From a virus: a DNA stretch of 45,859 nucleotides. Location: positions 1-45,859 of IMG/VR virus record IMGVR_UViG_3300042549_003496; one strand, written 5' to 3'. Each line of letters starts with the position of its first letter. Within the stretch, counting starts at the first letter, position 1. The notes beneath the pieces were generated by a model that had not been told where the DNA came from, ran no database searches, and saw only the letters and a program-made list of their open reading frames with translations. The position numbers were made by a program, and so were the translations under genes. Positions 719 through 45,169 of the stretch are shown piece after piece.

Positions 719-748
719 TTTTCTACCACCCCCCCTACCGAGTAAAAG
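719..748 (+). promoter_or_regulatory. Repeated promoter-like element, copy 1
   Basis: -35-like TTTTCT (719-724), 18-nt spacer beginning ACCA plus 7 C, -10-like TAAAAG (743-748). The gene ATG follows 20 nt later, leaving a predicted leader of about 14 nt. Confidence 0.65.
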
Positions 749-768
749 GGAAGAGTAACACCGAACCA

Positions 769-1122
769 ATGACCACCCCCCGATACATCACCTGCTACGA
801 AGTCACCCGACTTTGCTACTCCCCCGCTGAGGGCGGTTGCTACTACGACCACCACCGCTTTGTCGGTTCCATGTCCGTAAAGGATATCCCGCTGGGTAAT
901 GAGTGGTGGCAAAATGCCTCCAACAAAACCCTCGAAGAGGCTGGTGAGAGTCTGTTTCGTGACCAGTGCGGTGCGGTATTTGAGGATGATACCATCGAAC
1001 AATGGGGCAACACCCGAAAAGTGCGTGGCATATCATCCGCAAGCCCCGAGGCTACCCACCGTATCTACCTCGAAGAGGTGCTAGGCGAAAACACCACCAT
1101 TAAAGTGCCTGTTTACGAATAG
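769..1122 (+). CDS. Hypothetical cassette protein (117 aa)
   Basis: A small soluble protein starting M-T-T-P-R-Y-I-T-C-Y-E-V, with aromatic and Cys residues early (CYSPAEGGCYYD). This N-terminus resembles small phage proteins of unknown function that I know only from memory. No catalytic motif is visible. The next promoter copy starts 7 nt after its TAG stop, so it is probably a single-gene transcript. Function unknown. Confidence 0.75.
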   Translation: MTTPRYITCYEVTRLCYSPAEGGCYYDHHRFVGSMSVKDIPLGNEWWQNASNKTLEEAGESLFRDQCGAVFEDDTIEQWGNTRKVRGISSASPEATHRIYLEEVLGENTTIKVPVYE

Positions 1123-1129
1123 CCACCGC

Positions 1130-1159
1130 TTTTCTACCACCCCCCCTAACCAATAAAAC
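1130..1159 (+). promoter_or_regulatory. Repeated promoter-like element, copy 2 (leaderless type)
   Basis: -35-like TTTTCT, ACCA plus 7 C, -10-like TAAAAC ending at 1159. The ATG begins 6 nt later at 1166, where a normal start point would fall, so the mRNA is predicted to be leaderless. Confidence 0.7.
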
Positions 1160-1165
1160 GAAAGT

Positions 1166-1390
1166 ATGAAACAACCCCCTGTCACTGTCCAGTGTTCGGC
1201 ACCCACCCAAATCGGCTATGATGAGTACATCCTCATCGGCTTCGACCAGAATGAGTGTGCCATCATTAATGAAGGCGATTCTATTGGCATGCTTGATTTG
1301 AAGTGCTATTGCCCTAGGGCTGACCGCCCCGCTGGCTACTCGTTCAAGCACGATGGTGTGTGGTATGAATTCACCCACTCGGTAAAGTGA
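1166..1390 (+). CDS. Hypothetical cassette protein (74 aa)
   Basis: A compact soluble protein whose alternating hydrophobic pattern (YDEYILIGFDQNECAIINEGD, read as two short strands) suggests beta structure. No family is recognised. The start is fixed by the promoter copy whose -10 ends 6 nt upstream; no Shine-Dalgarno can exist in so short a leader. A minus-strand open frame of 92 codons over the same bases is rejected as a shadow. Confidence 0.75.
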   Translation: MKQPPVTVQCSAPTQIGYDEYILIGFDQNECAIINEGDSIGMLDLKCYCPRADRPAGYSFKHDGVWYEFTHSVK

Positions 1391-1392
1391 GG

Positions 1393-1422
1393 TTTCCTAC
1401 CACCCCCCCTAATCCATAGATT
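1393..1422 (+). promoter_or_regulatory. Repeated promoter-like element, copy 3
   Basis: -35-like TTTCCT, ACCA plus 7 C, 18-nt spacing, -10-like TAGATT (1417-1422). The preceding gene stops at 1390, 2 nt before the element. The ATG is 20 nt downstream, after a short ACCAAC-type leader. Confidence 0.65.
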
Positions 1423-1442
1423 GAAATAGTACCAACAAACAA

Positions 1443-1640
1443 ATGCGAAACAACTTCTATATCGGCTCTGAACCAGTCAAGCGTAAGAATGTGTGGATTG
1501 TGACCATATATCTGCACACCTCCGAGAATCCCAAGGGATTGATTGATAGCGAAAATTCCTTCAAGACAAAGCGTGATGCGAAACTATTCATCGCTGGCTG
1601 GCTTGAATTCCTTGAATGCTACAAGCGTATCGGAAACTGA
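1443..1640 (+). CDS. Hypothetical cassette protein (65 aa)
   Basis: A basic small protein (VKRKNVWIVTIYL, SFKTKRDAKLFIAGW) with a pattern of strands then a helix, reminiscent of small nucleic-acid-binding folds but without a diagnostic motif. The leader is C/A-rich with no Shine-Dalgarno. It is followed 5 nt later by a second gene with no promoter copy of its own, so the two form a two-gene transcript. Confidence 0.7.
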   Translation: MRNNFYIGSEPVKRKNVWIVTIYLHTSENPKGLIDSENSFKTKRDAKLFIAGWLEFLECYKRIGN

Positions 1641-1645
1641 TTGAT

Positions 1646-1840
1646 ATGAAAGTTGCTCAATACAATAAATACCTGAACCAATACTGGAATTACAGGGACA
1701 TGGAATGGGTGGGCGATATTAACGATGCTACACATATTGATTTTGAACATGTATGCCTGCATTATACGCTATTGGAACCGCCGCTGATGTGGCAGAAGGT
1801 TCCCGATGCTGGATTGGCTACCACCCCCCCTAACCAATAA
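1646..1840 (+). CDS. Hypothetical protein ending inside the next promoter element (64 aa)
   Basis: ATG 1646 (MKVAQYNKYLNQYW) is preferred over an upstream in-frame start at 1616 that would overlap the preceding gene. The product is aromatic-rich with no recognised family. Its last codons are translated from the next promoter-like element: the spacer encodes the tail ATTPPNQ and the TAA stop is the first half of the -10 hexamer TAAAAC. This is one of three genes whose stop codon comes from a -10. Confidence 0.7.
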   Translation: MKVAQYNKYLNQYWNYRDMEWVGDINDATHIDFEHVCLHYTLLEPPLMWQKVPDAGLATTPPNQ

Positions 1841-1843
1841 AAC
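1814..1843 (+). promoter_or_regulatory. Repeated promoter-like element, copy 4 (leaderless; contains upstream stop codon)
   Basis: -35-like TTGGCT, ACCA plus 7 C, -10-like TAAAAC (1838-1843). The TAA of the -10 ends the upstream gene, and the next ATG starts 6 nt after the -10 at 1850. Confidence 0.7.
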
Positions 1844-1849
1844 GATTGT

Positions 1850-2152
1850 ATGGAAACCACCAACGACACCCCCGACATCACCGCCTCCCGTTACTGCGTC
1901 ATGGGGCCGAGCATCTCCTTCAACGCCGACTACATCACCCGTAGCGGTCACTACCGCCTCATCCCCCACCCCCACCGCTACCGAAATGAGGGCGAATCTA
2001 ATGAAGAATTCGATGCGTACATCGACAGCATCACTCTCATGCACCTCCCCGATACCTCCGAGGGCTTGGACAAGGCCGTAGAGGTGATGCGGATGTGGAA
2101 CACTGTGGGTGCCACTTGGGACGACTCGACTACCACCCCCCCTACCGAGTAA
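1850..2152 (+). CDS. Hypothetical cassette protein (100 aa)
   Basis: Predicted to be translated from a leaderless mRNA (-10 ends 6 nt before the ATG). The sequence has a beta-like N-terminal half and an acidic helical middle (NEGESNEEFDAYIDS, then GLDKAVEVMRMW). Its tail STTTPPTE is encoded by the next promoter spacer, and the TAA stop is the start of that element's -10. No family recognised. Open frames on both other strands here are shadows of the C-rich composition. Confidence 0.75.
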   Translation: METTNDTPDITASRYCVMGPSISFNADYITRSGHYRLIPHPHRYRNEGESNEEFDAYIDSITLMHLPDTSEGLDKAVEVMRMWNTVGATWDDSTTTPPTE

Positions 2153-2155
2153 AAG
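2126..2155 (+). promoter_or_regulatory. Repeated promoter-like element, copy 5 (contains upstream stop codon)
   Basis: -35-like TCGACT, ACCA plus 7 C, 18-nt spacing, -10-like TAAAAG (2150-2155). The TAA ends gene 1850-2152. A 35-nt C/A-rich leader (AGTACCAACAACCCACC...) precedes the next ATG. Confidence 0.65.
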
Positions 2156-2190
2156 GGAAGAGTACCAACAACCCACCACCCATAACCGCC

Positions 2191-2376
2191 ATGCCCTACG
2201 AAGTCCGCCCCATCACCTCCTTCCCCCAAACCGACCCCATCTGGGCGAATCCCAATGCAGGTGCATGGGTCATCTACGAGACCACTGACGGCTACATTGC
2301 CGATTCCTGCAAGTCCCTGACCGCCGCCGAGGCCAAGTGCAACCGCTGGAATGAGGACACCTCCGAAAACGAGTGA
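2191..2376 (+). CDS. Hypothetical cassette protein (61 aa)
   Basis: The frame opens upstream, but ATG 2191 (MPYEVRPITSFPQ) is the only start downstream of the promoter copy at 2126-2155, so it is preferred. The short protein reads as two strands and a helix (GAWVIYETTDGYIADSCKSL, then TAAEAKCNRW). That pattern is common in small phage proteins; no family is assigned. The leader lacks G-rich ribosome-binding sequence. Confidence 0.65.
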   Translation: MPYEVRPITSFPQTDPIWANPNAGAWVIYETTDGYIADSCKSLTAAEAKCNRWNEDTSENE

Positions 2377-2406
2377 TTCCCTACCACCCCCCCCATCCCT
2401 TAATCT
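2377..2406 (+). promoter_or_regulatory. Repeated promoter-like element, copy 6
   Basis: -35-like TTCCCT directly abuts the upstream TGA stop (2374-2376). ACCA plus 8 C, 18-nt spacing, -10-like TAATCT (2401-2406). The ATG lies 34 nt downstream. Confidence 0.65.
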
Positions 2407-2440
2407 AATCTTATCACCAACCGCTTCACCCCCAACACAT

Positions 2441-2740
2441 ATGAGCAACACCCCCAAGCCTGACATCGTCAAGTACCACCACATCAGCCACTACAACTAC
2501 TCGAAATCCTTCTTCGTGGGCATCGACTGGGACTCCGCCGCCGCCTTTCTCGCCGCCTACCCCGCCAAGGAGTTGACCTCGGATGAGGGCCGCTCCCGAG
2601 CCATCGTTCAGACCACGACCACGCCCCACGGCTATGTGAGCCGCAAGGTCATGGACATCAAGGATGTCGTGGAAATCGCCCAGCAGGAAATCGCCAATTA
2701 CCTGCCCAAGGCCGACCCCCTGCCCACGAAGGCCGAGTAG
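2441..2740 (+). CDS. Hypothetical cassette protein (99 aa)
   Basis: ATG 2441 (MSNTPKPDIVKYHH) is chosen because it lies downstream of the promoter copy; the in-frame extension to 2351 would be read from within the previous gene. The product carries many aromatic residues early (HISHYNYSKSFFVGIDWDS) and a helical C-terminal half (DIKDVVEIAQQEIANYL). No known domain is recognised. The stop abuts promoter copy 7. Confidence 0.7.
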   Translation: MSNTPKPDIVKYHHISHYNYSKSFFVGIDWDSAAAFLAAYPAKELTSDEGRSRAIVQTTTTPHGYVSRKVMDIKDVVEIAQQEIANYLPKADPLPTKAE

Positions 2741-2770
2741 TTGGCTACCACCCCCCCCACTGGGTAATGT
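2741..2770 (+). promoter_or_regulatory. Repeated promoter-like element, copy 7 (drives a non-coding stretch)
   Basis: -35-like TTGGCT, ACCA plus 8 C, 18-nt spacing, -10-like TAATGT (2765-2770). It is the only copy not followed closely by a convincing gene. The next 165 nt are a structured sequence. Confidence 0.65.
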
Positions 2771-2776
2771 GGGGAT

Positions 2777-2934
2777 GTTGATTGAAAGTTGATTGCATGA
2801 CGGGATGCCTGACCAGTACGGAAGGCAGGCATCCCACCCCCTTTCCCTTTGGGATAGGAGCGTAACCTCCCCCTCGCCTATTCATCCGAGTCTCGGGAAC
2901 ACCGCTCACAAAGCACCGCTCCTATCCCATCCCC
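2777..2934 (+). ncRNA. Candidate structured non-coding RNA
   Basis: A transcript from copy 7 would start near 2777. Two strong stems follow: GGGATGCCTG (2802-2811) pairs perfectly with CAGGCATCCC (2826-2835), and GGGATAGGAGCG (2851-2862) pairs perfectly with CGCTCCTATCCC (2917-2928) around a 54-nt loop that contains CCGA-GTC-TCGG. A 22-codon frame from ATG 2797 exists but is crossed by the first stem and shows no protein-like pattern. No U-rich terminator is seen, so it could also be a long 5' leader of gene 2999-3283. No known RNA family is recognised. Confidence 0.5.
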
Positions 2935-2964
2935 TTTCCTACCACCCCCCTCCCTCGGTAAAAC
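2935..2964 (+). promoter_or_regulatory. Repeated promoter-like element, copy 8
   Basis: -35-like TTTCCT, ACCA plus 6 C, 18-nt spacing, -10-like TAAAAC (2959-2964). The ATG is 34 nt downstream after an AGTACCAACAACCCATCACC-type leader. Confidence 0.65.
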
Positions 2965-2998
2965 GAAGGAGTACCAACAACCCATCACCCACCACATC

Positions 2999-3283
2999 AT
3001 GCCCCCCGCCACCCGCTACGCCATCACTGTGCCCGTCACCCTCGCCGCTGGACAAGTCGTCCGCTTCCTGCCCAACACCCCCGACACCTGCACCTTTGAC
3101 ACCCACGATGCGGCCCGCAAAGCCCTCGAAAATGTATACGATGCCCTCATTGCCATGGGTGAACCCCACTCCGCCATGGCGATGCAAATCACCCCGTATA
3201 ATGTCATGCTTACGGGTTCCGATGGGCAACACCTGCCCATGCTCCTCCCCGCCAATCACATCCGCTTCTCCTCGGTGGGCTAG
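2999..3283 (+). CDS. Hypothetical cassette protein (94 aa)
   Basis: A small soluble protein with a beta-rich start (YAITVPVTLAAGQVVRF), a central helix (DAARKALENVYDAL) and a beta-rich end. No family is recognised. A 228-codon minus-strand frame over this locus is rejected as composition-driven. The TAG stop at 3281-3283 is the first half of the next element's -35-like hexamer TAGACT. Confidence 0.75.
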   Translation: MPPATRYAITVPVTLAAGQVVRFLPNTPDTCTFDTHDAARKALENVYDALIAMGEPHSAMAMQITPYNVMLTGSDGQHLPMLLPANHIRFSSVG

Positions 3284-3310
3284 ACTACCACCCCCCCCAC
3301 CCCGTAGATT
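3281..3310 (+). promoter_or_regulatory. Repeated promoter-like element, copy 9 (-35 holds upstream stop)
   Basis: -35-like TAGACT (its TAG ends gene 2999-3283), ACCA plus 8 C, 18-nt spacing, -10-like TAGATT (3305-3310). A 39-nt C/A-rich leader made of repeated CCACCCA units precedes the ATG. Confidence 0.65.
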
Positions 3311-3349
3311 GGAAGAGTACCAACAACCCACCACCCACCACCCACCCAT

Positions 3350-3643
3350 ATGGCCCGCCTCAACACCCCCATCGCCTTCACCGCCTATCAGGCTTTCCCC
3401 GCCACTGACTCTCCCGAGTTGCACCACCGCCAGTTGCCCAAGGGCATCACTGACAGCGTGAAGCGGGAGTGGTACCGAACCGAGGGTGCCCGACTCCAAG
3501 CCCTCGCCATCGATGCGGGGAAGCAGGCCGAGGCCACTGGGTCTGCGTACTTCGCCTCCCTCGAAAGCACCCTTATCCACGAAGCGAAGCAGTGCGTACT
3601 TGCCTCCAAGCGGAAGAATGGGCATGTGGAGCGGGCTTCCTGA
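3350..3643 (+). CDS. Hypothetical cassette protein (97 aa)
   Basis: Starts MARLNTPIAFTAYQ; the second half is a long helical stretch rich in Arg, Ala and Glu (VKREWYRTEGARLQALAID and on). No family is recognised. The TGA stop (3641-3643) lies inside the next promoter element. Overlapping frames of 60-73 codons on either strand are shadows. Confidence 0.75.
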   Translation: MARLNTPIAFTAYQAFPATDSPELHHRQLPKGITDSVKREWYRTEGARLQALAIDAGKQAEATGSAYFASLESTLIHEAKQCVLASKRKNGHVERAS

Positions 3644-3666
3644 CCACCCCCCCCACCCAGTAGATT
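3637..3666 (+). promoter_or_regulatory. Repeated promoter-like element, copy 10 (leaderless type)
   Basis: -35-like TTCCTG, ACCA plus 8 C, 18-nt spacing, -10-like TAGATT (3661-3666). The upstream TGA stop overlaps the element, and the next ATG is 6 nt after the -10. Confidence 0.65.
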
Positions 3667-3672
3667 GAATCC

Positions 3673-3744
3673 ATGCTCCTATCCCTCCTGACCACCGCCC
3701 TGTTGTTCACATGCATCGTCACCCTCATCTACACTACCCGTTGA
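3673..3744 (+). CDS. Leaderless 23-residue hydrophobic peptide
   Basis: This very short frame encodes a peptide that is almost entirely one membrane-spanning segment (MLLSLLTTALLFTCIVTLIY, then TTR). Support comes from position: its ATG lies exactly 6 nt after a -10 hexamer of the repeated promoter, as for other leaderless genes here, and nothing else is encoded before the next copy. It may insert in the inner membrane; function unknown. Confidence 0.55.
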   Translation: MLLSLLTTALLFTCIVTLIYTTR

Positions 3745-3887
3745 GCGGAAACGATTGAGGCGAAACCTAGCCACCCCGCCCCGCTCCCTCCCGTAGGCAC
3801 CTACCCACCCCCGCCGCTCCGCCCCTCTCGTAGGCACCCACCCCCTCCTCATCAGGAGGTGCCGACCACCCCACCGCCGACCACCCC
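3745..3887. other. C-rich non-coding stretch with a compound hairpin
   Basis: No gene is supported. A short repeat GTAGGCACC occurs near 3793 and 3831. The second copy starts a hairpin: GGCAC (3833-3837) pairs with GTGCC (3859-3863) around an inner stem CTCCT-CATC-AGGAG (3845-3858). It could act as an mRNA 3' end or as part of a small RNA. No U-run follows. Confidence 0.35.
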
Positions 3888-3917
3888 TCGACCACCACCC
3901 CCCCTATCCCGTAGATT
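3888..3917 (+). promoter_or_regulatory. Repeated promoter-like element, copy 11
   Basis: -35-like TCGACC, ACCA plus 7 C, 18-nt spacing, -10-like TAGATT (3912-3917). The ATG is 47 nt downstream after a leader consisting almost wholly of C and A. Confidence 0.65.
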
Positions 3918-3964: not shown

Positions 3965-4186
3965 ATGACCCCCACCACCCGAACCCTGAACCGAGTCCGC
4001 CACCGCATCACTCAGGCCCGCAAGGCAACCGAGGCCGCCAAGACGGCCCTCTTCAACGGCGACATCGACACCGCCATCCGCCGCCGCAACCTCGCCTCCC
4101 GCCTCGCTGGCACCGCCAAGCGGCTCCTGAGGGCCGAAGCCGCCAAAGCCCTCGAATGGGTCGAGGAGCAGCAGTTCAACGGCTGA
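3965..4186 (+). CDS. Small basic helical protein (73 aa)
   Basis: An Arg/Ala-rich protein (LNRVRHRITQARKATEAAK, then RRRNLASRLAGTAKRLL) with two long predicted helices, possibly a helical hairpin that binds nucleic acid or a partner. No family is recognised. It is the last gene of the cassette array; hairpins beginning at 4188 follow its stop. A longer overlapping frame from 3859 is rejected because its protein is a composition artefact of Pro, His and Arg. Confidence 0.7.
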   Translation: MTPTTRTLNRVRHRITQARKATEAAKTALFNGDIDTAIRRRNLASRLAGTAKRLLRAEAAKALEWVEEQQFNG

Positions 4187-4193
4187 ACCCCAA

Positions 4194-4209
4194 GGGGTCA
4201 GGTGACCCC
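4194..4209 (+). terminator. Stem-loop after the cassette array, possible terminator
   Basis: GGGGTCA and TGACCCC can pair 8 nt after the last cassette stop codon. No U-run follows, so intrinsic termination is uncertain. Confidence 0.35.
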
Positions 4210-4250
4210 TCCTCCCTACCCTGTACCCTGTCTAAAAAGAGACACGATGG

Positions 4251-4284
4251 TAACAGTGGATGGGGAGGGGGGGGTTCACTGTTA
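4251..4284. other. 8-bp stem with a G-quadruplex-capable loop
   Basis: TAACAGTG (4251-4258) is the exact reverse complement of CACTGTTA (4277-4284). The 18-nt loop contains GGGG, A, then eight G, enough for a four-stranded G structure on the plus strand. It sits between the early and late regions. Confidence 0.55.
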
Positions 4285-4388
4285 ACATTTCCCCCCAATG
4301 AGGGGAGACATTCAACCAGACACAATTTTTTGCAAATAGACTAAACCTAAACCTATATGCCTCTTAAACCAGAGGGGATTACTAAGGG

Positions 4389-36145: not shown

Positions 36146-36964
36146 TTAGAACAAGTCAATTGTATTGACGGTGGCGGGATAACTGGGGTAAATGCCAGAC
36201 TTCTGGCAAAGAGAAAGAGTCTTAAGACACTCCTGAAGGACTGGCATAGTCTTAAAAGCAATGTCGGAAGGGTTGATTTCAACGATACGAACACCGTGAG
36301 GGGTTTCCTTTTCAACAAAGATAAACAGGAATCGGAAGTTAATCTGAGGGGTAGCACTCTTCATCAACTCAAGATAATGACATGCTTGCAAATCGTACTT
36401 AAATTTGCTAATCACCTTTCTGATATTAAACGAGTCTGCAATATCGTTTGTGGTTTTAAGGTCTGCAATAATTCCAGCCTCATAATTAACCCAATCAAGA
36501 CGACCTTTGACTGCCACATCTCCGTCTACAGTGGTACCAAACACGGACACCTCAGGCTCTCCCTTGTTAATTATGTCCATAACGACAGGATGAAGCCGAA
36601 CCTGCTCTGCCATACTGATACAACGGTCATAGTCAAGTTGAGGTAGGCAAATCTTGCCAGCGTTTTCAGCCTCGAATTTAAGAGCCCCAGACTTTCCTTC
36701 AGTAGTTCGTCTGTCGAACTTGGGTGCCATGACGACTTCGTTATTAAAAACGGTTGGTTGAAATACGGCAAGATGAGTAGCAGTTCCCAGTCGCATTGCT
36801 TCGGTTTCTTCGGAGGGGGAGTCCAAGTATGCTCGGAAGTGGGCGGGGGATTTTGCGAGGTGCTTGAGTGCGGATTGGGAGACGGCATTGACTTCACGGT
36901 ATTCTGCGTCAGGCATTGCGGGAAGATGCTGAGCGTTCTTATTATAGAGACAGGTAGGCTTCAT
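36146..36964 (-). CDS. PD-(D/E)XK exonuclease, RecE-like (272 aa)
   Basis: A 5'-3' DNA exonuclease of the RecE C-terminal/DUF3799 type, inferred from the catalytic core: Glu in GEPEVS (about 138), Asp157 in GRLDW, Asp168-x-Lys170 in IADLKTT, then the Gln motif YDLQACHYLEL. The N-terminal SQSALKHLAKSPAHFRAYL is also typical of the family. It probably makes the single strands used by the ERF annealing protein encoded upstream. Promoter copy 20 lies directly before it with an 8-nt gap from -10 to ATG. Confidence 0.87.
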   Translation of the reverse strand: MKPTCLYNKNAQHLPAMPDAEYREVNAVSQSALKHLAKSPAHFRAYLDSPSEETEAMRLGTATHLAVFQPTVFNNEVVMAPKFDRRTTEGKSGALKFEAENAGKICLPQLDYDRCISMAEQVRLHPVVMDIINKGEPEVSVFGTTVDGDVAVKGRLDWVNYEAGIIADLKTTNDIADSFNIRKVISKFKYDLQACHYLELMKSATPQINFRFLFIFVEKETPHGVRIVEINPSDIAFKTMPVLQECLKTLSLCQKSGIYPSYPATVNTIDLF

Positions 36965-36972: not shown

Positions 36973-37002
36973 AGTATATGTTGGTGGGGGGGTAGTAGAA
37001 AA
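36973..37002 (-). promoter_or_regulatory. Repeated promoter-like element, copy 20 (minus strand)
   Basis: Minus-strand -35-like TTTTCT (37002-36997), ACTA plus 7 C, 18-nt spacing, -10 TATACT (36978-36973). The exonuclease ATG follows 8 nt later, giving a leaderless or almost leaderless mRNA. Confidence 0.65.
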
Positions 37003-37589: not shown

Positions 37590-38366
37590 TTAGAACGGAA
37601 CTCCGTCTTCTTCGGCGGCAGGCTCCTGCTCGCCTGTGGCATTCTGGTAGAGAGCGACTGCTGTGGCCTTAAGGTTGGTGTCCTTCTGAGAGACACGGCC
37701 CGTCTTTTCATACGGACGGGGTTCCCAGACCGTAGCCCAGTACTTAAGGTCATCAACTCCAAGGTCTCCGATTGCCATGCCCTTGCTTTTGCCAAATGGC
37801 AGGGTCATGGTAGGGTCAATCGAGCCATTAGACTGCACTGGTGCCTGCTGAGGGGCCGTTTGAGCGGCAATAGGTGCCGAGGGCTTGGGAACCCATGCCG
37901 CCGCACTCTTGGGCTTAACGGTAGCCTGTGCATCATCATCATCCGTAGCCACGCCTGAACAAGCCGCCAATCCGTAGCGTCTAAGATAAGTTATAAGAGA
38001 GCCAACATCCTGTCCGTTAGTTTCGTTGTCACAAGGAATCAGACATTCGTTGCCGATGTATGTACCGTTCTCATGGATGATAATGGTGTTAACGCCAATC
38101 GCCCAGCCATCCTTTTCGCCAATGCCGCTTCGGCTCACGGGGAATTGAAGAATGCCTAACTTATGCTTAGCAAAAATCGGTTTAAGTGCCGACAAATGTG
38201 CCGATAGGCTGGCGTACTTGGACTTATGAAAAGGATTGTTGCTGTCAGCAAGGATGTCCTTGGTTTCGGCAATAGCCTTAATGATGGCGGAAAAGAGAAC
38301 GCTCTTATCCTGATTGGTGTTGTCTTCTTGGTTCATAGGAAAAAGTAATCGGTTTAGTCGGCTCAT
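37590..38366 (-). CDS. erf: ERF-family single-strand annealing protein (258 aa)
   Basis: A recombination mediator that anneals complementary single strands. Family signs are NPFHKSKYASLSAHLSALKP (about 43-62) and LITYLRRYGLAACSGVATDD followed by DDA (about 123-145). The C-terminal part (LPFGKSKGMAIGDLGVDDLK) resembles the DUF3820/exodeoxyribonuclease X C-terminal domain often fused to such proteins. ATG 38366 fits the promoter copy 21, whose -10 TATAGT ends 8 nt upstream; ATG 38336 is the alternative. It is bounded downstream by a terminator. Confidence 0.87.
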   Translation of the reverse strand: MSRLNRLLFPMNQEDNTNQDKSVLFSAIIKAIAETKDILADSNNPFHKSKYASLSAHLSALKPIFAKHKLGILQFPVSRSGIGEKDGWAIGVNTIIIHENGTYIGNECLIPCDNETNGQDVGSLITYLRRYGLAACSGVATDDDDAQATVKPKSAAAWVPKPSAPIAAQTAPQQAPVQSNGSIDPTMTLPFGKSKGMAIGDLGVDDLKYWATVWEPRPYEKTGRVSQKDTNLKATAVALYQNATGEQEPAAEEDGVPF

Positions 38367-38374
38367 TGGTGTAC

Positions 38375-38402
38375 ACTATATGAGAAGGGGGGTAGTAGTC
38401 AA
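38375..38402 (-). promoter_or_regulatory. Repeated promoter-like element, copy 21 (minus strand)
   Basis: Minus-strand TTGACT (38402-38397), ACTA plus 6 C, 16-nt spacing, -10 TATAGT (38380-38375). The ERF ATG is 8 nt after the -10; counted at 18 nt the hexamer would be TAGTGT with a 6-nt gap. Near leaderless either way. Confidence 0.7.
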
Positions 38403-38531: not shown

Positions 38532-39215
38532 TCAAGCGGATATTGCGTTAAAGTAATCACGAAGTCTTCTCACAAATGCAACGCCCGTCTCCTTGTTCTG
38601 AAAACGCTCAACAAGTCTGTCGCCAGTATAATTCGTGGTGATAATTGTAGTACGCAGGTTAGAGGTTCTATCGTCAATTACTGCAAATAGGTCTGCTTCC
38701 AGTCTGGCTGTAAGGCGTTCCTTGCCTAGGTCATCCAGTACCAGCACTGGAGCGGTTGCAAGAATGTCAAGAGCCTTGCTGTGAGACCTGTCATCAAACC
38801 CCTTCTCGATAATTCCCTCAAACTTTCTCATCTGCAAGAACATGGTACGCTTAGGGTACTCCTCAAGCCACAGCCTATTATAGACCAACCAAGCGGCTCG
38901 GCTCTTGCCAGTGCCAGTTTCTCCATGCAGGATAAGGCCGCACTTGCCCTCAGGCTTAACCCATACATTCGCCTTTGCAAGCATGTCATTAAACTTCACA
39001 TCTGTATTGTAAAACGCAAGAGGGTAGTCTGGGTGTGTGCTTACATGCTTAAGGTTATTACGCATAAAAACCTTATCGTAAGCAAACGGGTGTTGCCAGT
39101 GCGTCTCCCTTGTAAAGCATGTGGTGCAAACACGAATGTTTGTGTCGAACACGCCCTTGTCCTCATTCCATGCTGGGGTAGCATTATTTTCGCAGTGTGT
39201 GCATTTAGAAGCCAT
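38532..39215 (-). CDS. DnaC/IstB-like helicase loader ATPase (227 aa)
   Basis: An N-terminal zinc site (CTHC at 5-8 and CTTC at 30-33) precedes an AAA+ domain with Walker A GETGTGKS (98-105), Walker B VLVLDDLG (157-164) and sensor TTIITTNYT. This matches DnaC-type loaders that place the host replicative helicase at an origin. It is co-directional with and overlaps the initiator gene, the O-P arrangement known from lambda-like phages. No phage helicase is present, so host helicase use is inferred. Confidence 0.9.
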   Translation of the reverse strand: MASKCTHCENNATPAWNEDKGVFDTNIRVCTTCFTRETHWQHPFAYDKVFMRNNLKHVSTHPDYPLAFYNTDVKFNDMLAKANVWVKPEGKCGLILHGETGTGKSRAAWLVYNRLWLEEYPKRTMFLQMRKFEGIIEKGFDDRSHSKALDILATAPVLVLDDLGKERLTARLEADLFAVIDDRTSNLRTTIITTNYTGDRLVERFQNKETGVAFVRRLRDYFNAISA

Positions 39216-39879
39216 TACGGTGGTCTTGTTTGGTGATTATAGGTTTGTTGGTAAATTTATTTTCGGTTACTGCAAAAAGGCCAGCCCATCCCTTTTCAAT
39301 AGACTGGTTAATTGACTGGATTGCCCTAGCCTCGTCTTTCATCGACTTGAGGAAGTCGAATTGCTTGACAACAGTGGAGTTAACAAGTTTCTTCTTGGTT
39401 TCCTTTCTGTAGGCTATCCATGCCATCCATGCATCAGAAAACGCCTTTGAGTCATAAGGCATAACAGGTGTAGCCTCCATGCCCTTCACGGGCTGTATCT
39501 TTGTATCTATATCTTCTTTATTATCTTCTTTATTATATGGGTGCAATTCATTGCACTGGGGGGGTGCAATAGGATGCACTGGGGGGGTGCAGTGGAGTGC
39601 ATCCCTTAGTGCATTAGAATGCACCGTCCTAAGGATGCGGCGACCAATGGGAGTGTAAGTCCTAATAACCAACTTACGCTCAATCAACTTATTGAGAATG
39701 TTCTGCAACTGTCTCTTCTCTATGTTCGCCATGTTTGCAATGTAAATATTAGACGCAAAGCATCCGTCATCGCCATCAAGCGAATCGATAAGCGACAGGC
39801 ACAGTTTCTCTGTTAGTGATAGAGTGGAGTTCTCTAGCACTTCCTTGGGAATCCATATCCCAGTGAATTGGAGGTTCAT
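39205..39879 (-). CDS. Replication initiator with winged helix (lambda O-like, 224 aa)
   Basis: Residues about 10-86 form an HTH_36-type winged helix (LSLTEKLCLSLIDSLDGDDG; KRQLQNILNKLIERKLVIR). A Pro/His-rich linker (about 87-130) is encoded by a repeat array that looks like an origin. The C-terminal region (AWMAWIAYRKETKKKL) resembles replisome-organiser or DnaD-like parts that recruit the helicase. It overlaps the helicase-loader start by 11 bases. Promoter copy 22 lies 11 nt upstream. Confidence 0.83.
   Translation of the reverse strand: MNLQFTGIWIPKEVLENSTLSLTEKLCLSLIDSLDGDDGCFASNIYIANMANIEKRQLQNILNKLIERKLVIRTYTPIGRRILRTVHSNALRDALHCTPPVHPIAPPQCNELHPYNKEDNKEDIDTKIQPVKGMEATPVMPYDSKAFSDAWMAWIAYRKETKKKLVNSTVVKQFDFLKSMKDEARAIQSINQSIEKGWAGLFAVTENKFTNKPIITKQDHRNGF
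39500..39624. other. Candidate replication origin inside the initiator gene
   Basis: Four 16-nt elements of form GTGCA-N6-TGCAC begin at 39541, 39564, 39587 and 39609, a 22-23-nt period of about two helical turns. The first and last are nearly perfect inverted repeats with 7-bp arms; the middle two have 5-bp arms, and in element 3 one end is imperfect. Runs of seven G separate the first three. Next to them, at about 39500-39540, is an AT-rich stretch (TATCTATATC, TTATTATCTTC, TTATTATATGG) suitable for unwinding. Iterons plus an AT-rich region within an initiator gene is the layout of the lambda origin. Confidence 0.7.
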
Positions 39880-39890
39880 AACTACCTCAT

Positions 39891-39918
39891 ACTATACGAG
39901 GAAGGGGGTAGTAGTCAA
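39891..39918 (-). promoter_or_regulatory. Repeated promoter-like element, copy 22 (minus strand; contains upstream stop)
   Basis: Minus-strand TTGACT (39918-39913), ACTA plus 5 C, 16-nt spacing, -10 TATAGT (39896-39891). The TGA of the -35 is the stop codon of the upstream gene. The initiator ATG is 11 nt after the -10. Confidence 0.7.
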
Positions 39919-40409: not shown

Positions 40410-40437
40410 TTGACTACCACCCCCTTCTTTGTATAAT
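40410..40437 (+). promoter_or_regulatory. Repeated promoter-like element, copy 18 (best -10 match)
   Basis: TTGACT (40410-40415), ACCA plus 5 C, 16-nt spacing, perfect TATAAT (40432-40437). The ATG of the small membrane protein is 9 nt downstream. It sits at the divergence point of the two transcription directions. Confidence 0.75.
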
Positions 40438-40446
40438 GTAAGACCT

Positions 40447-40548
40447 ATGAGTTTTACCCCCATCACATTTATTGTAGGTACCCTATTTGCAGTCGGATAT
40501 ACAGCCGCATCGTCAATTGTTGACATTATTAAGGGGGAAGACAAGTGA
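40447..40548 (+). CDS. Small membrane protein upstream of RusA (33 aa)
   Basis: MSFTPITFIVGTLFAVGYTA forms one membrane segment, followed by a short charged tail (SSIVDIIKGEDK). The ATG lies 9 nt after a perfect TATAAT, and the stop overlaps the RusA start as GTGA, supporting expression. Function unknown. Confidence 0.6.
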   Translation: MSFTPITFIVGTLFAVGYTAASSIVDIIKGEDK

Positions 40549-41015
40549 TTGTCAATATACGGGTGCCTATTGCACCTCCACCTACGCATCAGGCGGCACT
40601 GCGTGTTCTAAAGAATAAGCATGGCAAAATGTTTATAGGCAAGATGTCCACCAGTAAAGCGTCTAAATGGGCTCTTAATTTTAGCGTACTAATTAACCAG
40701 TGGAAGCCTAAGCAACCTATGGAAGGGGCTATTCGTGCAAGCATTCATTTTGCTTATCCGTTGCTTGCAAGACATAAGAACAGGATGCTTGTAGAGGCCA
40801 AAATGACTAGGCCAGACTGCGACAACTTGGTTAAGTCCGTGTTAGACTGTTTGGTTAAAAGCGGATATATGATTGATGACGCAAATATAGCACACCTGTC
40901 GGTAACAAAAAGTTACCACTGGAAGGCACCTTTTGTTGATGTAATTATCACGGAAGAAAAGAACAACCCGTTTACAGACCCCACGCTGTGGAAGGAAGAT
41001 GAAGAAACCGTTTGA
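40545..41015 (+). CDS. rusA: RusA-family Holliday junction resolvase (156 aa)
   Basis: Cuts four-way DNA junctions to free branched intermediates before packaging. Family signs are TRPDCDNLVKSVLDCL (residues about 88-103, with Asp91 and Asp93) and DDANIAHL (about 111-118), the acidic residues that bind metal, plus an N-terminal PIAPPPTHQ. The GTG start overlaps the small membrane gene. The TGA stop lies in the -35-like hexamer of the next promoter copy. It completes a recombination set with the exonuclease and ERF protein. Confidence 0.9.
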   Translation: MIVNIRVPIAPPPTHQAALRVLKNKHGKMFIGKMSTSKASKWALNFSVLINQWKPKQPMEGAIRASIHFAYPLLARHKNRMLVEAKMTRPDCDNLVKSVLDCLVKSGYMIDDANIAHLSVTKSYHWKAPFVDVIITEEKNNPFTDPTLWKEDEETV

Positions 41016-41034
41016 CTACTACCCCCTGTATAAT
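41012..41034 (+). promoter_or_regulatory. Repeated promoter-like element, copy 19 (shortened)
   Basis: TTGACT (41012-41017), ACTA plus 5 C, then TATAAT (41029-41034), only 11 nt between hexamers against 16-18 elsewhere. The -35 contains the RusA stop codon. It may be a damaged copy, or the conserved part may serve as a regulator site. Confidence 0.45.
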
Positions 41035-41047: not shown

Positions 41048-41497
41048 ATGAAGTCGGAAAGGATAACAGACAGGACGATTTACAGCATGTTTGTTGTATA
41101 TAACTGTTCTTATTATTTAAACGGCGGGCCTTTGTCTGACAGAACATGCACAATGCGAATCAATCGTGCATATAGAAAGTTGTTTGAGCAATCCCTTACA
41201 TTGCAGTGCCCTTGGACTCTTGCTGGCATAAAGAAAACAATGTCAAGAGTGTACTCAACCAATAGCAACGAAACAATTGTTGATTGCACACACGCTATTC
41301 AGATAGAGGTCGAAGACCCTAACAACGCTCCAGAAAAACTAGGCATGGGATTTATCTCACTTGTGCTTGACAATATAAACAATGACCATAATAATGGCAT
41401 CAATCAAGCCAACATAACTTCTCCTATTGCCGTAGAAGATATAATAAGAGGCTACCTTCAAATCGATAACACCATCTATTTCCCCCCACAACTATGA
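41048..41497 (+). CDS. Hypothetical protein (149 aa)
   Basis: ATG 41048 (MKSERITDRTIYSMFVVYNC) is preferred because the earlier in-frame ATG 41033 lies inside the -10 hexamer. A soluble alpha/beta protein with a conserved-looking core (RINRAYRKLFEQSLTLQCPW; TIVDCTHAIQIEVEDP). No family is recognised. ATGA overlap with the next gene. Confidence 0.65.
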   Translation: MKSERITDRTIYSMFVVYNCSYYLNGGPLSDRTCTMRINRAYRKLFEQSLTLQCPWTLAGIKKTMSRVYSTNSNETIVDCTHAIQIEVEDPNNAPEKLGMGFISLVLDNINNDHNNGINQANITSPIAVEDIIRGYLQIDNTIYFPPQL

Positions 41498-41709
41498 ACC
41501 AACGAGAAAAAACCCGTGTAGAAAACTACCTTTTGGCTTACCCGCTGATTGCACAAAACGCCGAAGCGAAGAAGGCTCTGGAACTTCTTTGCGTTGACCC
41601 CAAGATTGGATTCCCTGCTGGTGCAGATAACCAGCGTAAGTTCCGCATGGCTAGACGCAATCGAGACCTTGCGGTTGAAGCACTCAACGCTTCTGTCGCC
41701 AAGGGCTAA
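41494..41709 (+). CDS. Small helical protein (71 aa)
   Basis: Helical and basic (REKTRVENYLLAYPLIAQNA; RKFRMARRNRDLAVEALN). Coupled to the preceding gene by ATGA. It ends 5 bases before the tRNA cluster. No family is recognised. Confidence 0.65.
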   Translation: MNQREKTRVENYLLAYPLIAQNAEAKKALELLCVDPKIGFPAGADNQRKFRMARRNRDLAVEALNASVAKG

Positions 41710-41714: not shown

Positions 41715-41786
41715 GTTCCCTTCGTTCAACGGATAGGACTTTGGTTTTCTACACCAATAATAGAGGTTCGAGTCCTCTAGGGAACA
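41715..41786 (+). tRNA. tRNA-Arg (anticodon TCT)
   Basis: Acceptor GTTCCCT/AGGGAAC, anticodon arm TTGGT-TTTCTAC-ACCAA, T arm AGAGG-TTCGAGT-CCTCT. It reads AGA, an Arg codon frequent in the late genes. CCA is not encoded. Confidence 0.92.
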
Positions 41787-41789
41787 CAT

Positions 41790-41861
41790 GCCCTGTTAGC
41801 ACAGTGGTAGTGCGACTGTTTTGTAAACAGTAGGTCGTTGGTTCAATCCCAACACAGGGCT
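41790..41861 (+). tRNA. tRNA-Thr (anticodon TGT)
   Basis: Acceptor GCCCTGT/ACAGGGC, anticodon arm ACTGT-TTTGTAA-ACAGT, T arm with GGTTCAATC. It reads ACA. CCA is not encoded. Confidence 0.92.
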
Positions 41862-41867
41862 CTCTTT

Positions 41868-41938
41868 GGGGACTTCTTTCAATGGTAGGAAACTCGGTTT
41901 GCATCCGAGCAATGGGGGTTCGATTCCCCCCGTCTCCA
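41868..41938 (+). tRNA. tRNA-Cys (anticodon GCA)
   Basis: Acceptor pairs GGGGAC with GTCTCC (one G-T pair), anticodon arm CTCGG-TTTGCAT-CCGAG, T arm GGGGG-TTCGATT-CCCCC. The exact first base may be 41867. Confidence 0.88.
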
Positions 41939-41945
41939 TTCTTTC

Positions 41946-42017
41946 GCATCAGTAACTCAATGGTAGAGTGTCAGTTTTCCAAACTGGTTGTTGCAGGTTC
42001 AAGCCCTGTCTGATGCA
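41946..42017 (+). tRNA. tRNA-Gly (anticodon TCC)
   Basis: Acceptor GCATCAG/CTGATGC, anticodon arm TCAGT-TTTCCAA-ACTGG, T arm containing GGTTCAAGC. It reads GGA, abundant in the late genes. Confidence 0.9.
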
Positions 42018-42022
42018 TTTTA

Positions 42023-42095
42023 TGGCGTGTAACTCAGCGGTTAGAGTGGGCTCTTTATAAGGGCTAAGTCGAGGGTTCGACTCCCTCCACGCCAA
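42023..42095 (+). tRNA. tRNA-Ile (anticodon TAT)
   Basis: Acceptor TGGCGTG/CACGCCA, anticodon loop TTTATAA giving TAT, T arm GAGGG-TTCGACT-CCCTC. It reads ATA. The anticodon stem has two G-T pairs. Promoter copy 12 starts 5 bases after its end. Confidence 0.85.
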
Positions 42096-42099
42096 CCAT

Positions 42100-42129
42100 T
42101 TCCCTACCACCCCCCTTTCCAAGTAAAAC
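42100..42129 (+). promoter_or_regulatory. Repeated promoter-like element, copy 12 (leaderless type)
   Basis: -35-like TTCCCT, ACCA plus 6 C, 18-nt spacing, -10-like TAAAAC (42124-42129). The ATG starts 6 nt later at 42136. Confidence 0.7.
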
Positions 42130-42135
42130 CAAACC

Positions 42136-42492
42136 ATGAATTACGAATTTGAAGACCTCGAAATTAAACACGGCTCATCCACCATCATTGTCTCTGGTAG
42201 GGCCGAGTATGAAATAGAAGACGAAGGCATTGGTGGCTACGAGTACTGGGGTGCTAAAGGCACCGACCACCAGTATGTTGCACGATTCGTTGACGCTACC
42301 ATTACGAATTACGAACTTGAAGTAACTCAAAAATCCTCGCCTATCCAAGGTGTTACCGAAACAGACCTACATGCATTTGAAAACATTGTCGTAGATATGC
42401 TTAACGACAATCAAGACCTATGCCTTGAACTTTCTGAAGACGGTGCCGCCGATGAAGATGAACCGCCCTGCGACCCTGATTATCTCGACTAA
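42136..42492 (+). CDS. Hypothetical acidic cassette protein (118 aa)
   Basis: Strongly acidic, beta-rich at the start (HGSSTIIVSGRAEYEIEDEG) with an acidic tail (EDGAADEDEPPCDPDYLD). Predicted leaderless start from the -10 6 nt upstream. It begins a four-gene transcript coupled by TAATG overlaps. No family is recognised; high acidity is seen in DNA-mimic proteins, but that is only a possibility. Confidence 0.7.
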   Translation: MNYEFEDLEIKHGSSTIIVSGRAEYEIEDEGIGGYEYWGAKGTDHQYVARFVDATITNYELEVTQKSSPIQGVTETDLHAFENIVVDMLNDNQDLCLELSEDGAADEDEPPCDPDYLD

Positions 42493-42725
42493 TGAAAAAG
42501 CAAACCTACACCCTACACCCTGTTCGTTTCTACTGGAACGACACTCCAGACGAAATCCTTGACGGCATCATTGCTGTTAATATGTTTGTCCCCGCTCAAG
42601 ATGGGGATGATGACAACCTTACTTTGTATAAGTTTTCTCAAGACGAGTGGACTAAAATCCAAAACGCCGTTGCCAATAGGCACGAATACGAAACCGACAC
42701 TTTTACTATTACCTTCCGAGAATAA
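42492..42725 (+). CDS. Hypothetical cassette protein (77 aa)
   Basis: Acidic small protein with an aromatic beta-rich start (TYTLHPVRFYWNDTPDEIL) and a helical segment (FSQDEWTKIQNAVANR). Starts by TAATG overlap and ends by TAATG with the next gene. No family is recognised. Confidence 0.7.
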   Translation: MKKQTYTLHPVRFYWNDTPDEILDGIIAVNMFVPAQDGDDDNLTLYKFSQDEWTKIQNAVANRHEYETDTFTITFRE

Positions 42726-42976
42726 TGCCCTATAATCCAATGTATGAAATCCTTCTTGGCAAAAGCCTCGATGCACTTGCACAATGCGACAAGGTAATCG
42801 CAGAAAAAATCTTCACTCTTGAACTTACCAACAAGCGTCTAGCCGAAGGGGTAAGCGTTACTTCTAGCAACAAGGTCGGCGGTATCGACCAGTTGGTAAC
42901 GCAAATCAGCGAACTTACTAAACTTAAGCGAGAGATTGAAGTAATCCTTAAACAAGGCAACAGCCTAGATATTTAA
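42725..42976 (+). CDS. Small helical protein (83 aa)
   Basis: Almost wholly helical with a coiled-coil pattern (EIKL-like heptads in VTQISELTKLKREIEVILKQ). TAATG-coupled to its neighbour. No family is recognised. Confidence 0.7.
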   Translation: MPYNPMYEILLGKSLDALAQCDKVIAEKIFTLELTNKRLAEGVSVTSSNKVGGIDQLVTQISELTKLKREIEVILKQGNSLDI

Positions 42977-42977
42977 C

Positions 42978-43256
42978 ATGTCCCTAATCCAATACAAAAA
43001 AGACGGCACCCCTGACTTCGTACTGCTTGCCTGTATGAATTTCCTATCTTCTTACCCCGACTGTTGGGATGGTGAGCAAATCCTTGACCACATTGAGTCC
43101 GAAGGATTCTGCCCTTCTACTGACAAGCGTGTTGCAGTGTGGGCCGCTGTTGAAAACAGCAATGCAGAAGAAATCCTAGAATCAATTTTGGCCTTGGCAG
43201 ATTGCTTTGAGTCTGCATACAACGCTGGTCGGGATTCTGCAAAAACCTCGGCTTGA
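42978..43256 (+). CDS. Hypothetical cassette protein (92 aa)
   Basis: A Cys-containing alpha-helical protein (FVLLACMNFLSSYPDCWDGE; ESILALADCFESAYNAGRDS). It starts 1 base after the preceding stop. The TGA stop lies in the -35-like TTGACC of promoter copy 13. No family is recognised. Confidence 0.7.
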   Translation: MSLIQYKKDGTPDFVLLACMNFLSSYPDCWDGEQILDHIESEGFCPSTDKRVAVWAAVENSNAEEILESILALADCFESAYNAGRDSAKTSA

Positions 43257-43282
43257 CCACTACCCCCCCTAACCCTTAAAAC
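43253..43282 (+). promoter_or_regulatory. Repeated promoter-like element, copy 13 (-35 holds upstream stop)
   Basis: TTGACC (its TGA ends gene 42978-43256), ACTA plus 7 C, 18-nt spacing, -10-like TAAAAC (43277-43282). The ATG is 8 nt downstream, so the mRNA is nearly leaderless. Confidence 0.72.
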
Positions 43283-43290
43283 GAAATCCT

Positions 43291-43797
43291 ATGACCAACC
43301 CAGAACAAACCCCCCCAGAAAACCTGCCTGCTGTTACCCACACTGTTAAGGTTCTCACCCGTAAGCATCACCTCAACTGCATCGAAAAGCCCATCACCAA
43401 GGAATACGCACAACAACTCTGGTACATCGTTTCTGCGGCCTGCGAAGGCGGTCTCGGTGGCGAATCTTGGGGCTGGTCTACCAACCGCAAGTCTGGTATC
43501 GGCGGCTGGAAGGCGTATAACGAAGCCGACCAGAATAATAACCACGACACCATCTATGTTGACCTCAAGTTCGTCAACCATGAAGATGATGAAGACCTGA
43601 CGGGCTACATCCGTGTTAATGCGGAATTCCTGCACAACAAGATGATTAAGTTCGTCAACGATGAAGACCAGCCCGCTTGGCTCCGCAAGCACTACGCCGA
43701 GTTCCTCGTCACCCGTGAAACCCCCGACAACGCCGATGCCGTCACTGCCGATGCCCTTATGCAGTATGCATTCGTTGACGAAATCGTCTTCGGTTGA
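43291..43797 (+). CDS. Hypothetical cassette protein (168 aa)
   Basis: One of the larger cassette products. A Pro-rich start (TNPEQTPPENLP), a Gly/Trp-rich centre (GGLGGESWGWSTNRKSGIGG) and an acidic beta/alpha second half (TIYVDLKFVNHEDDEDLTGY). No family is recognised. Its TGA stop lies inside the next promoter's TTGACC. Confidence 0.75.
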   Translation: MTNPEQTPPENLPAVTHTVKVLTRKHHLNCIEKPITKEYAQQLWYIVSAACEGGLGGESWGWSTNRKSGIGGWKAYNEADQNNNHDTIYVDLKFVNHEDDEDLTGYIRVNAEFLHNKMIKFVNDEDQPAWLRKHYAEFLVTRETPDNADAVTADALMQYAFVDEIVFG

Positions 43798-43823
43798 CCA
43801 CCACCCCCCCTACCCAGTAAAAC
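43794..43823 (+). promoter_or_regulatory. Repeated promoter-like element, copy 14 (leaderless; -35 holds upstream stop)
   Basis: TTGACC with the upstream TGA, ACCA plus 7 C, 18-nt spacing, -10-like TAAAAC (43818-43823). The ATG is 6 nt after the -10, a full example of stop, promoter and start in 39 bases. Confidence 0.75.
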
Positions 43824-43829
43824 ACAAAT

Positions 43830-44273
43830 ATGAAAAACCTAATCGCCAAATGGCTCCTCGGTATCACCAAAGAGCAACTCGTTCAAGTGCTTGTGGATAA
43901 CATTGAACTCAAGACCAAAATTGAGACGCTCGAGTCCGAAGAGGACGAAAAGTATATCCTGCGGTCTGACTTCGACCCTGATGATTACGACTTCGACCCG
44001 CTCCGTGATTACGACTTCAGCGAATTCCTCACCAGCGAAAACATGGGTGATGTGCTTGTCGATAACGAGGTTGTTCAGTCTGGAGACCTAGACCAAGCGT
44101 TGGACGGCTACGCCACGACTGAATATGTTGACGGCGAAATCACCAGCCTGAAGAATCGCCTCGATGCCCTTGAGGAAAAGGCGAAGCCCAAGCGTAAGAA
44201 GCCCTTGACTGATGCGGAGCAGATGGTCAAAGACCACATCGAACGCATTAGGGGCAAGAAAAAGGACAAGTAA
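43830..44273 (+). CDS. Hypothetical cassette protein, coiled-coil and acidic (147 aa)
   Basis: Helical start (KNLIAKWLLGITKEQLVQVL), a coiled coil (LKTKIETLESEEDEK), a Tyr/Asp/Phe-rich acidic repeat (DFDPDDYDFDPLRDYDFSEF), then a second helical segment (EITSLKNRLDALEEKAKPKR) with a basic tail (RGKKKDK). Predicted leaderless start. Possibly a scaffolding or DNA-binding accessory protein; unassigned. A terminator follows. Confidence 0.75.
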   Translation: MKNLIAKWLLGITKEQLVQVLVDNIELKTKIETLESEEDEKYILRSDFDPDDYDFDPLRDYDFSEFLTSENMGDVLVDNEVVQSGDLDQALDGYATTEYVDGEITSLKNRLDALEEKAKPKRKKPLTDAEQMVKDHIERIRGKKKDK

Positions 44274-44314
44274 TTTGCTGGTATTGGTTGCGTGTAAAAC
44301 CTTAAAAGGTTTAT

Positions 44315-44350
44315 GGGGACGATTGCCGTGGTGGTGGTCGTCCCCTTTTT
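44315..44350 (+). terminator. Intrinsic terminator whose U-tract overlaps the next -35
   Basis: GGGGACGA (44315-44322) and TCGTCCCC (44338-44345) pair perfectly (8 bp) and are followed by five T. The last two T begin the TTGACT of promoter copy 15, so end and start signals share bases. Confidence 0.85.
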
Positions 44351-44378
44351 GACTACCACCCCCCAACTTCCGTAAAAC
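44349..44378 (+). promoter_or_regulatory. Repeated promoter-like element, copy 15 (leaderless type)
   Basis: TTGACT, ACCA plus 6 C, 18-nt spacing, -10-like TAAAAC (44373-44378). The ATG begins 6 nt later at 44385. Confidence 0.75.
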
Positions 44379-44384
44379 CCAAAT

Positions 44385-44663
44385 ATGAAAACACCAAATT
44401 GCCGAGCCCGACAGAAAGTGATGAACCGCACCGAGTTCACTGGCAACAACACTTTCGGCATCTGGACAAAAGGCAATTATGTGGTATACTCCTACGGTCT
44501 GCACTTTCCGTTGCTTGCATATATCTATGCTGAAGAAAAGTGGTATCACAATAGCGACAAGTACAGCACAACCACCAGCAAACACCTGACTCAACTCCGC
44601 CCTCTTGGCGAAACCTTTCCCCTAAACACACAAGCCCTCCAATCCCTAATCCACCATGCCTAA
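44385..44663 (+). CDS. Hypothetical cassette protein (92 aa)
   Basis: Basic start (KTPNCRARQKVMNRTEF), then a pattern of short strands with Trp/Tyr (GIWTKGNYVVYSYGLHFPLL) and a Thr-rich C-terminus. Predicted leaderless start. It overlaps the next gene by 8 bases. No family is recognised. Confidence 0.72.
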   Translation: MKTPNCRARQKVMNRTEFTGNNTFGIWTKGNYVVYSYGLHFPLLAYIYAEEKWYHNSDKYSTTTSKHLTQLRPLGETFPLNTQALQSLIHHA

Positions 44664-44865
44664 ATACCGAGTAGCCGAAACCCTGCGTGTCGAATTCATC
44701 ACCGAAGGAGACACCCCTGACCACGCCGTTAAAAATTACCTTAAAGAATTCCGTGGTAACTTTGGTGCCAACGACAGCATTGAAGTTGTCCAAGGCGTTG
44801 ACCTCGAAATCAACTTCGTAAAGGAAGACGGCACCCTTGGCGATGAAGTCTTCACTGAAGAATAA
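44656..44865 (+). CDS. Small acidic protein (69 aa)
   Basis: Starts within the end of the previous gene. Sequence AETLRVEFITEGDTPDHAVK and FVKEDGTLGDEVFTEE: a short beta-alpha-beta acidic protein. No family is recognised. Co-transcribed with its neighbours. Confidence 0.7.
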   Translation: MPKYRVAETLRVEFITEGDTPDHAVKNYLKEFRGNFGANDSIEVVQGVDLEINFVKEDGTLGDEVFTEE

Positions 44866-44869
44866 TCCC

Positions 44870-45139: not shown

Positions 45140-45169
45140 GAAATCTCACCACTAACCAAATAACTACCC

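Follow-up and report, generated by a model that had tools for sequence, protein, structure and literature searches.

The early and accessory genes of the phage genome IMGVR_UViG_3300042549_003496 from IMG/VR (45,859 bases, analysed over its full length and hereafter called the window) are preceded by a family of short promoter-like elements, in which a C-rich core separates a -35-like hexamer from a -10-like hexamer beginning with TA. What, if anything, reads this core? A first interpretation, made without database searches (the sequence-only reading), had proposed that it is the binding site of one regulator controlling all early genes together. Our answer, to which we give an even chance, is that the elements would be sigma-70-type promoters of the host polymerase whose C-rich core binds one trans-acting factor, most likely a phage activator.

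The total of 22 promoter-like copies reported by the sequence-only reading was reproduced. Eighteen of them have exactly 18 nt between the hexamers, the motif being present at every one of the 18 coordinates reported with this spacing. Three others, at 38402(-), 39918(-) and 40410(+), can also be read as TTGACT-16-TATAxT, and the last, at 41012(+), has a spacer of 11 nt. A weight matrix built from 17 plus-strand copies found 21 sites in the window (partly its own training sites) and no site (maximum 0) in 40 dinucleotide shuffles of the window, which were made in 500-nt blocks so that local C-richness was preserved. Late genes, the other background named by the sequence-only reading, gave the same result, no copy being found inside the late block (5009-34100, 29 kb). 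The C runs are 5-8 long while the TA stays at 18 nt; the variation is therefore due to substitution, as had been suggested. A search with the core only retrieved the same copies and a few with GATAAC, CATAAG or CAATAT at the same spacing, so the TA of the -10 hexamer is not absolute. The core is nearly invariant in the window (columns 7, 8 and 10-16 of the 30-mer, information content 1.9-2.1), and the six-C run at columns 11-16 is invariant in the 17 copies that make up the rightward (plus-strand) early array, only three of which (43253, 43794 and 44349) keep TTGAC[TC] at the strict -35 position.

The family had been described over the interval 719-3917, which is only one of its clusters. A 158-nt overlap with two mismatches joins the ends of the record (1-158 and 45702-45859), which is probably a complete genome, circularly permuted or terminally repeated, with slight population variation. 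Because the ends overlap, the copies from 42100 to 45656 and those from 719 to 3888 form a single continuous rightward early array, and the right-hand early genes continue into the left-hand ones.

We then compared the window with its relatives, likewise uncultured viruses of bacteria. A search with the capsid protein gave 172 related viral contigs, several relatives being represented by fragments. The virion proteins of the sister phages are about 75-85% identical to those of the window, and among the nearest relatives with a contig that extends into the early region, most have repeated promoters of their own, with the same layout and a different C-rich core. Three core types were distinguished: type A, TTGACA-CCCCCCTCCCTC... 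TA(A/T)AAC, in G002, G012, G005, G031, G032 and G033; type B, TTGACC-ACCCCACCCC..., in G004, G026, G034 and G035; and type C, TTGNCT-ACCACCCCCCC..., in the window. The scan of related phage genomes suggested as a check by the sequence-only reading thus revealed in the sisters separate families of C-rich cores, concerted within each genome. The 18-nt layout is fixed across the three types, and TTGAC with a TA-hexamer at 18 nt was found in 42 of the 47 distinct sites of type A and 12 of the 13 of type B. In these two types, the -35 box is conserved about as well as the core; the claim that the spacer is better conserved than the hexamers holds for the window but does not extend to them. According to the tree of virion genes, core types follow clades and type A is one clade. 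An origin of type B inside type A may be suggested by replication genes, with a bootstrap of only 78%, but virion genes do not show it.

Outside this clade, the repeated core is absent from long relatives (G011, L194-L196 and more distant ones), whose few readable promoters look ordinary. A search with the DnaC-like protein found relatives without the core. Scanning IMG/VR with the type A and B patterns detected repeated copies in this phage clade only; the remaining matches are isolated, and nearly all of them depart from the 18-nt spacing. The exact pattern of the window with TAAAAC was found in no other IMG/VR record.

Evidence for a reader of the core comes from orthologous promoters, defined by clustering of the downstream proteins. 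Thirteen ortholog groups span two or three types, and the core is always that of its own genome, never that of the orthologue of another type; all copies (100 out of 100) are nearest to their own type. Counted over pairs that are not independent events, as types follow clades, mean mismatches in core columns 6-17 were 1.16 within the same genome (569 pairs) and 1.36 for orthologues that share a type, against 4.77 for orthologous promoters whose types differ (56 pairs) and 4.51 for unrelated promoters of different types. Orthologues of different types are thus no closer in the core than unrelated promoters of different types. In the filler (columns 18-24) the order is reversed, with 4.02 mean mismatches within a genome versus 1.89 between orthologues of one type, so that only the core is homogenised within a genome. 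Whole promoters are not copied, because copying would make the filler uniform too, whereas the filler follows descent. The simplest reading of these comparisons is that something reading the core in trans exerts selection on it.

Regarding the nature of the elements, 87 strict matches to TTGAC plus core were collected in eight genomes. An ATG open reading frame (ORF) of at least 35 aa follows within 45 nt in 82 cases, against 887 of 3200 random positions, and four further matches lie ahead of a shorter ORF that occupies the same place on the map in each case, so that 86 of the 87 stand before a start codon. Sigma-70-type hexamers at 16-18 nt before genes were found in types A and B; in the window the spacing is respected and the -35 is poor in most copies. 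That the elements are promoters, as the sequence-only reading had it, is well supported by this position and layout, from which we infer promoter activity. The start codon most commonly lies 6-9 nt past the -10 hexamer. With the usual distance to the start point, transcription would begin near the ATG and give leaderless mRNAs. A survey of bacteria takes a TA signal some 12 bp upstream of the start codon to mark leaderless genes (PMC3160421). In the remaining copies the leader is CA-rich and 14-47 nt long.

Three side observations concern these promoters. Hardly any gene of the window (25-45682) has a Shine-Dalgarno sequence, the longer leaders being CA-rich (ACCAACAACCCACC), and the host seems largely to do without such sequences. 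Many -10 boxes have C as their last base (TAAAAC, TATAAC), as do those of a few promoters in coreless relatives (TAGACC, TATACC), and this ending may reflect the host, not the element. In coreless relatives, CATGG is found directly 5' of the -10 box (L194 at 1919, L195 at 2113, L196 at 388 and 2690, G011 at 5254), possibly as another conserved promoter element.

The mechanism that we propose is the following. Each copy would be a promoter for the host RNA polymerase (sigma-70-type holoenzyme), its -35 box being TTGAC-like and its -10 box like TA(A/T)AAC or TATAAT, with transcription starting at or shortly before the start codon to give leaderless or short-leader mRNAs. With the -10 box at -12 to -7, the core would cover about -31 to -20, just inside the -35 box, as a separate asymmetric binding site for one trans-acting factor. 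Such a factor is suggested by the concerted change of the core alone. It would most likely be an early phage protein that touches the polymerase and activates the promoters, and core and factor would evolve together, giving each lineage its own core in all copies. The window, with its decayed -35 boxes and intact core, favours an activator, which would replace -35 recognition, as MotA does at T4 middle promoters (PMC2988021), there from a box farther upstream. Of the earlier proposal, the concerted difference of the core in all copies of a genome supports the part that makes the spacer a recognition site for one regulator; the existence of the factor, its binding, its origin and its sign are inferred. 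At roughly balanced chances, we prefer a phage-encoded activator to the alternatives of a host factor, a repressor or no reader at all. A broader claim falls a little short of that level: an early-gene control system not described before, in which a phage activator would recognise the C-rich core in the spacer of about 20 promoters, many of them leaderless, would have replaced recognition of the -35 box in one lineage and would shift its specificity by lineage, with all sites following.

The core could instead be read by a host protein, either a regulator or a host sigma factor with a spacer preference, in which case the three core types would correspond to three host species. The copies do resemble host-type promoters. 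Moreover, no phage RNA polymerase or sigma factor was recognised among the scanned proteins of the phage, a set that took in part of the small ORFs and was compared with family libraries (Pfam, PHROGs), and the C-ending -10 box of coreless relatives makes it probable that the host sets some of the promoter grammar. Yet relatives outside the clade manage without any core, and IMG/VR, prophages included, has repeated copies in this clade only. We therefore consider a host reader unlikely.

Somewhat less likely still is that the core is an operator for a phage repressor or an elongation-blocking protein, which would shut off early genes late in infection or in a prophage. The model for such a system is provided by the stoperators found in mycobacteriophages of Cluster A (L5, Bxb1). 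Each genome has 20-30 of these short, asymmetric sites, which point in the direction of transcription and whose consensus differs between subgroups with all copies shifting together (PMC6550527). Our elements are similarly many, short, asymmetric, oriented with transcription and concerted in their variation (about 20 sites with a genome-specific consensus), and a protein sitting in a promoter spacer would block the polymerase. However, stoperators lie mostly off promoters and block elongation in lysogens (PMC6550527), whereas nearly every copy here is at a promoter and a start codon, with the element in the promoter spacer at a fixed distance. Stoperators also go with a covarying gene for their cognate repressor; the sites here do covary, but the proteins scanned, which include part of the small ORFs, showed neither a recognisable integrase nor a lysogeny repressor. 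Repression would also leave the decay of the -35 in the window unexplained.

The absence of any reader, in which case recombination between copies would keep the core uniform or the C tract would do no more than set DNA shape, is improbable: the phage does encode an Erf-like annealing protein and an exonuclease, and local duplication does occur (719 and 2126, 46 nt at 91%), but homogenisation is confined to the core of about 12 nt while the adjoining filler keeps its descent, and a shape effect would not fix A/T interruptions at different positions in each lineage.

Several points nevertheless weigh against the phage activator that we favour. Types A and B keep an intact -35 box, and a plain sigma-70 promoter could work there unaided. 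The element finder demanded a C-rich spacer, and promoters without it are therefore undercounted. Core switches are few, perhaps two, each involving many loci. Lastly, the factor is putative, and the two phage proteins that could be proposed for it are weak candidates only. One of them, P0001, was rejected as specificity factor: the text of its recognition helix is identical in types A and B and does not track the core.

P0001 (39918-40385, minus strand) is a 156-aa protein with a helix-turn-helix, recognised through weak KorA and TrpR-like matches and placed at helices 24-61 of a poor structural model (pLDDT 62). It is conserved at 76-79% across types, versus 57-67% for the neighbouring O-like and DnaC-like proteins, and is also found in relatives without the core. 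A search with this protein for further right arms gave no new phages. The second candidate, p71 (41494-41709, plus strand), is a basic 71-aa protein with a confident, all-helical model, for which no fold match was found. It was found in the window and in six sister records that have the core, but in no other record searched; this restriction to the clade is weak evidence, other accessory genes being equally restricted.

In the literature searched, no match to repeated promoters with a C-rich spacer was found. The closest precedents are the stoperators and the MotA boxes of T4, neither being a full fit. In T4 middle promoters the -35 box is replaced by the MotA box, which is found 12 +/- 1 bp from the -10, at positions of about -35 to -26 (PMC2988021, PMC6755090). 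In T4 as here, a phage-specific element that replaces or overlaps the -35 box stands by a sigma-70 -10 box and is repeated before many genes; our core, however, is placed at about -31 to -20, ending 7 nt from the -10, and two of the three types retain the -35. Matching the scanned proteins to Pfam and PHROGs gave no relative of MotA or AsiA. T4 early promoters are excellent matches to the host elements UP, -35, TGn and -10 (PMC2988021); they resemble our elements as a large set of similar sigma-70 promoters with a consensus beyond the hexamers, but this extra consensus is here a C-rich core that changes between close relatives. Finally, mycobacteriophages of Cluster K have start-associated sequences, which contain a Shine-Dalgarno core and sit 3-7 nt ahead of the start; they are repeated, asymmetric, of unknown function and found only before starts of non-structural genes (PMC3203893). 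Our elements are likewise repeated and asymmetric before start codons of non-structural genes only; unlike that family, to which they do not belong, they have their core farther upstream, within the promoter, and without Shine-Dalgarno text. Few well-studied phage systems show the genome-wide co-evolution of a regulator with some twenty sites of its own. With a core of its own in each of three lineages, orthologous promoters in common and an unchanging layout, the present family would be a natural experiment on the change of specificity of a global regulator, and would point to an unrecognised way of commanding the host RNA polymerase via the promoter spacer.

The copies of the window are distributed as follows. 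In the left-hand part of the array (plus strand), the first copy (719-748, TTTTCT-ACCACCCCCCCTACCGAG-TAAAAG) precedes ORF 769-1122. The second (1130-1159, TTTTCT/TAAAAC) precedes ORF 1166-1390, with the ATG 6 nt past the -10 and a type B core at the orthologue in G004, and the third (1393-1422, TTTCCT/TAGATT) precedes ORF 1443-1640, whose orthologue in G012 has a type A core. The fourth (1814-1843, TTGGCT/TAAAAC) is again 6 nt from the ATG of its gene, ORF 1850-2152. They are followed by copies at 2126-2155 (TCGACT/TAAAAG), 2377-2406 (TTCCCT/TAATCT), 2741-2770 (TTGGCT/TAATGT), 2935-2964 (TTTCCT/TAAAAC, before ORF 2999-3283), 3281-3310 (TAGACT/TAGATT, before ORF 3350-3643, which has orthologues in types A and B), 3637-3666 (TTCCTG/TAGATT) and 3888-3917 (TCGACC/TAGATT, before ORF 3965-4186). 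The stretches 719-768 and 2126-2175 contain the 46-nt likeness mentioned above, leader GGGAAGAGTA included, pointing to a local duplication of the promoter-leader unit.

Three copies lie on the minus strand: 36973-37002 (36973 being its low end), before the exonuclease VIII-like gene (36146-36964, minus); 38373-38402, before the Erf-like gene (37590-38366, minus); and 39889-39918, before the O-like replication gene (39205-39879, minus). The last two have the alternative reading TTGACT-16-TATAGT. On the plus strand, copy 40410-40439 (alternative reading TTGACT-16-TATAAT) precedes a 33-aa ORF and the RusA-like gene, and the variant copy at 41012-41034 reads TTGACT-ACTACCCCCTG-TATAAT with its 11-nt spacer. 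The 33-aa ORF (40449-40550) is apparently membrane-spanning, and a small ORF follows the promoter at the matching place in types A and B (G002 20972-, G032 8016-, G034 13608+). The right-hand part of the array (plus strand) begins directly 3' of the tRNA cluster with copy 42100-42129, before ORF 42136-42492. It continues with 43253-43282 (intact TTGACC, before ORF 43291-43797), 43794-43823 (intact TTGACC, before ORF 43830-44273, whose type A and B orthologues have their own cores), 44349-44378 (intact TTGACT, before ORF 44385-44663), 45110-45139 (TAGACT/TAAAAC, before ORF 45170-45682) and 45656-45685 (TTGGCT/TAATCT), which precedes the gene recurring at the left end as ORF 25-324.

As for the rest of the genome, the capsid protein is of the SU10 family and the terminase of the T4-like family. 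The capsid protein shares at most about 30% with annotated phage records. Its only two relatives in bacterial genomes, in a delta-proteobacterium bin (38%) and in Pyramidobacter (26%), are distant and uninformative about host identity. The exonuclease VIII-like, Erf-like, DnaC-like and O-like genes form a leftward block, to which the RusA-like gene is opposite in orientation, and the interval 41715-42098 contains five tRNA genes. One protein of 3974 aa takes up a quarter of the genome (21110-33034); it was included in the scan for an RNA polymerase, with no match in Pfam or PDB and only two PHROG matches, both of unknown function. Lastly, a C-rich stretch with short inverted repeats, oriented against the array, is found between the early array and the terminase side (about 4190-4320 in the window, 11700 in G002, 5060 in G012 and about 2998 in G004). 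The inverted repeats read TTACACCCCCCC...TATACAGGGTGCAGGG in sister phages, and the stretch is perhaps a terminator, an origin or a packaging site.

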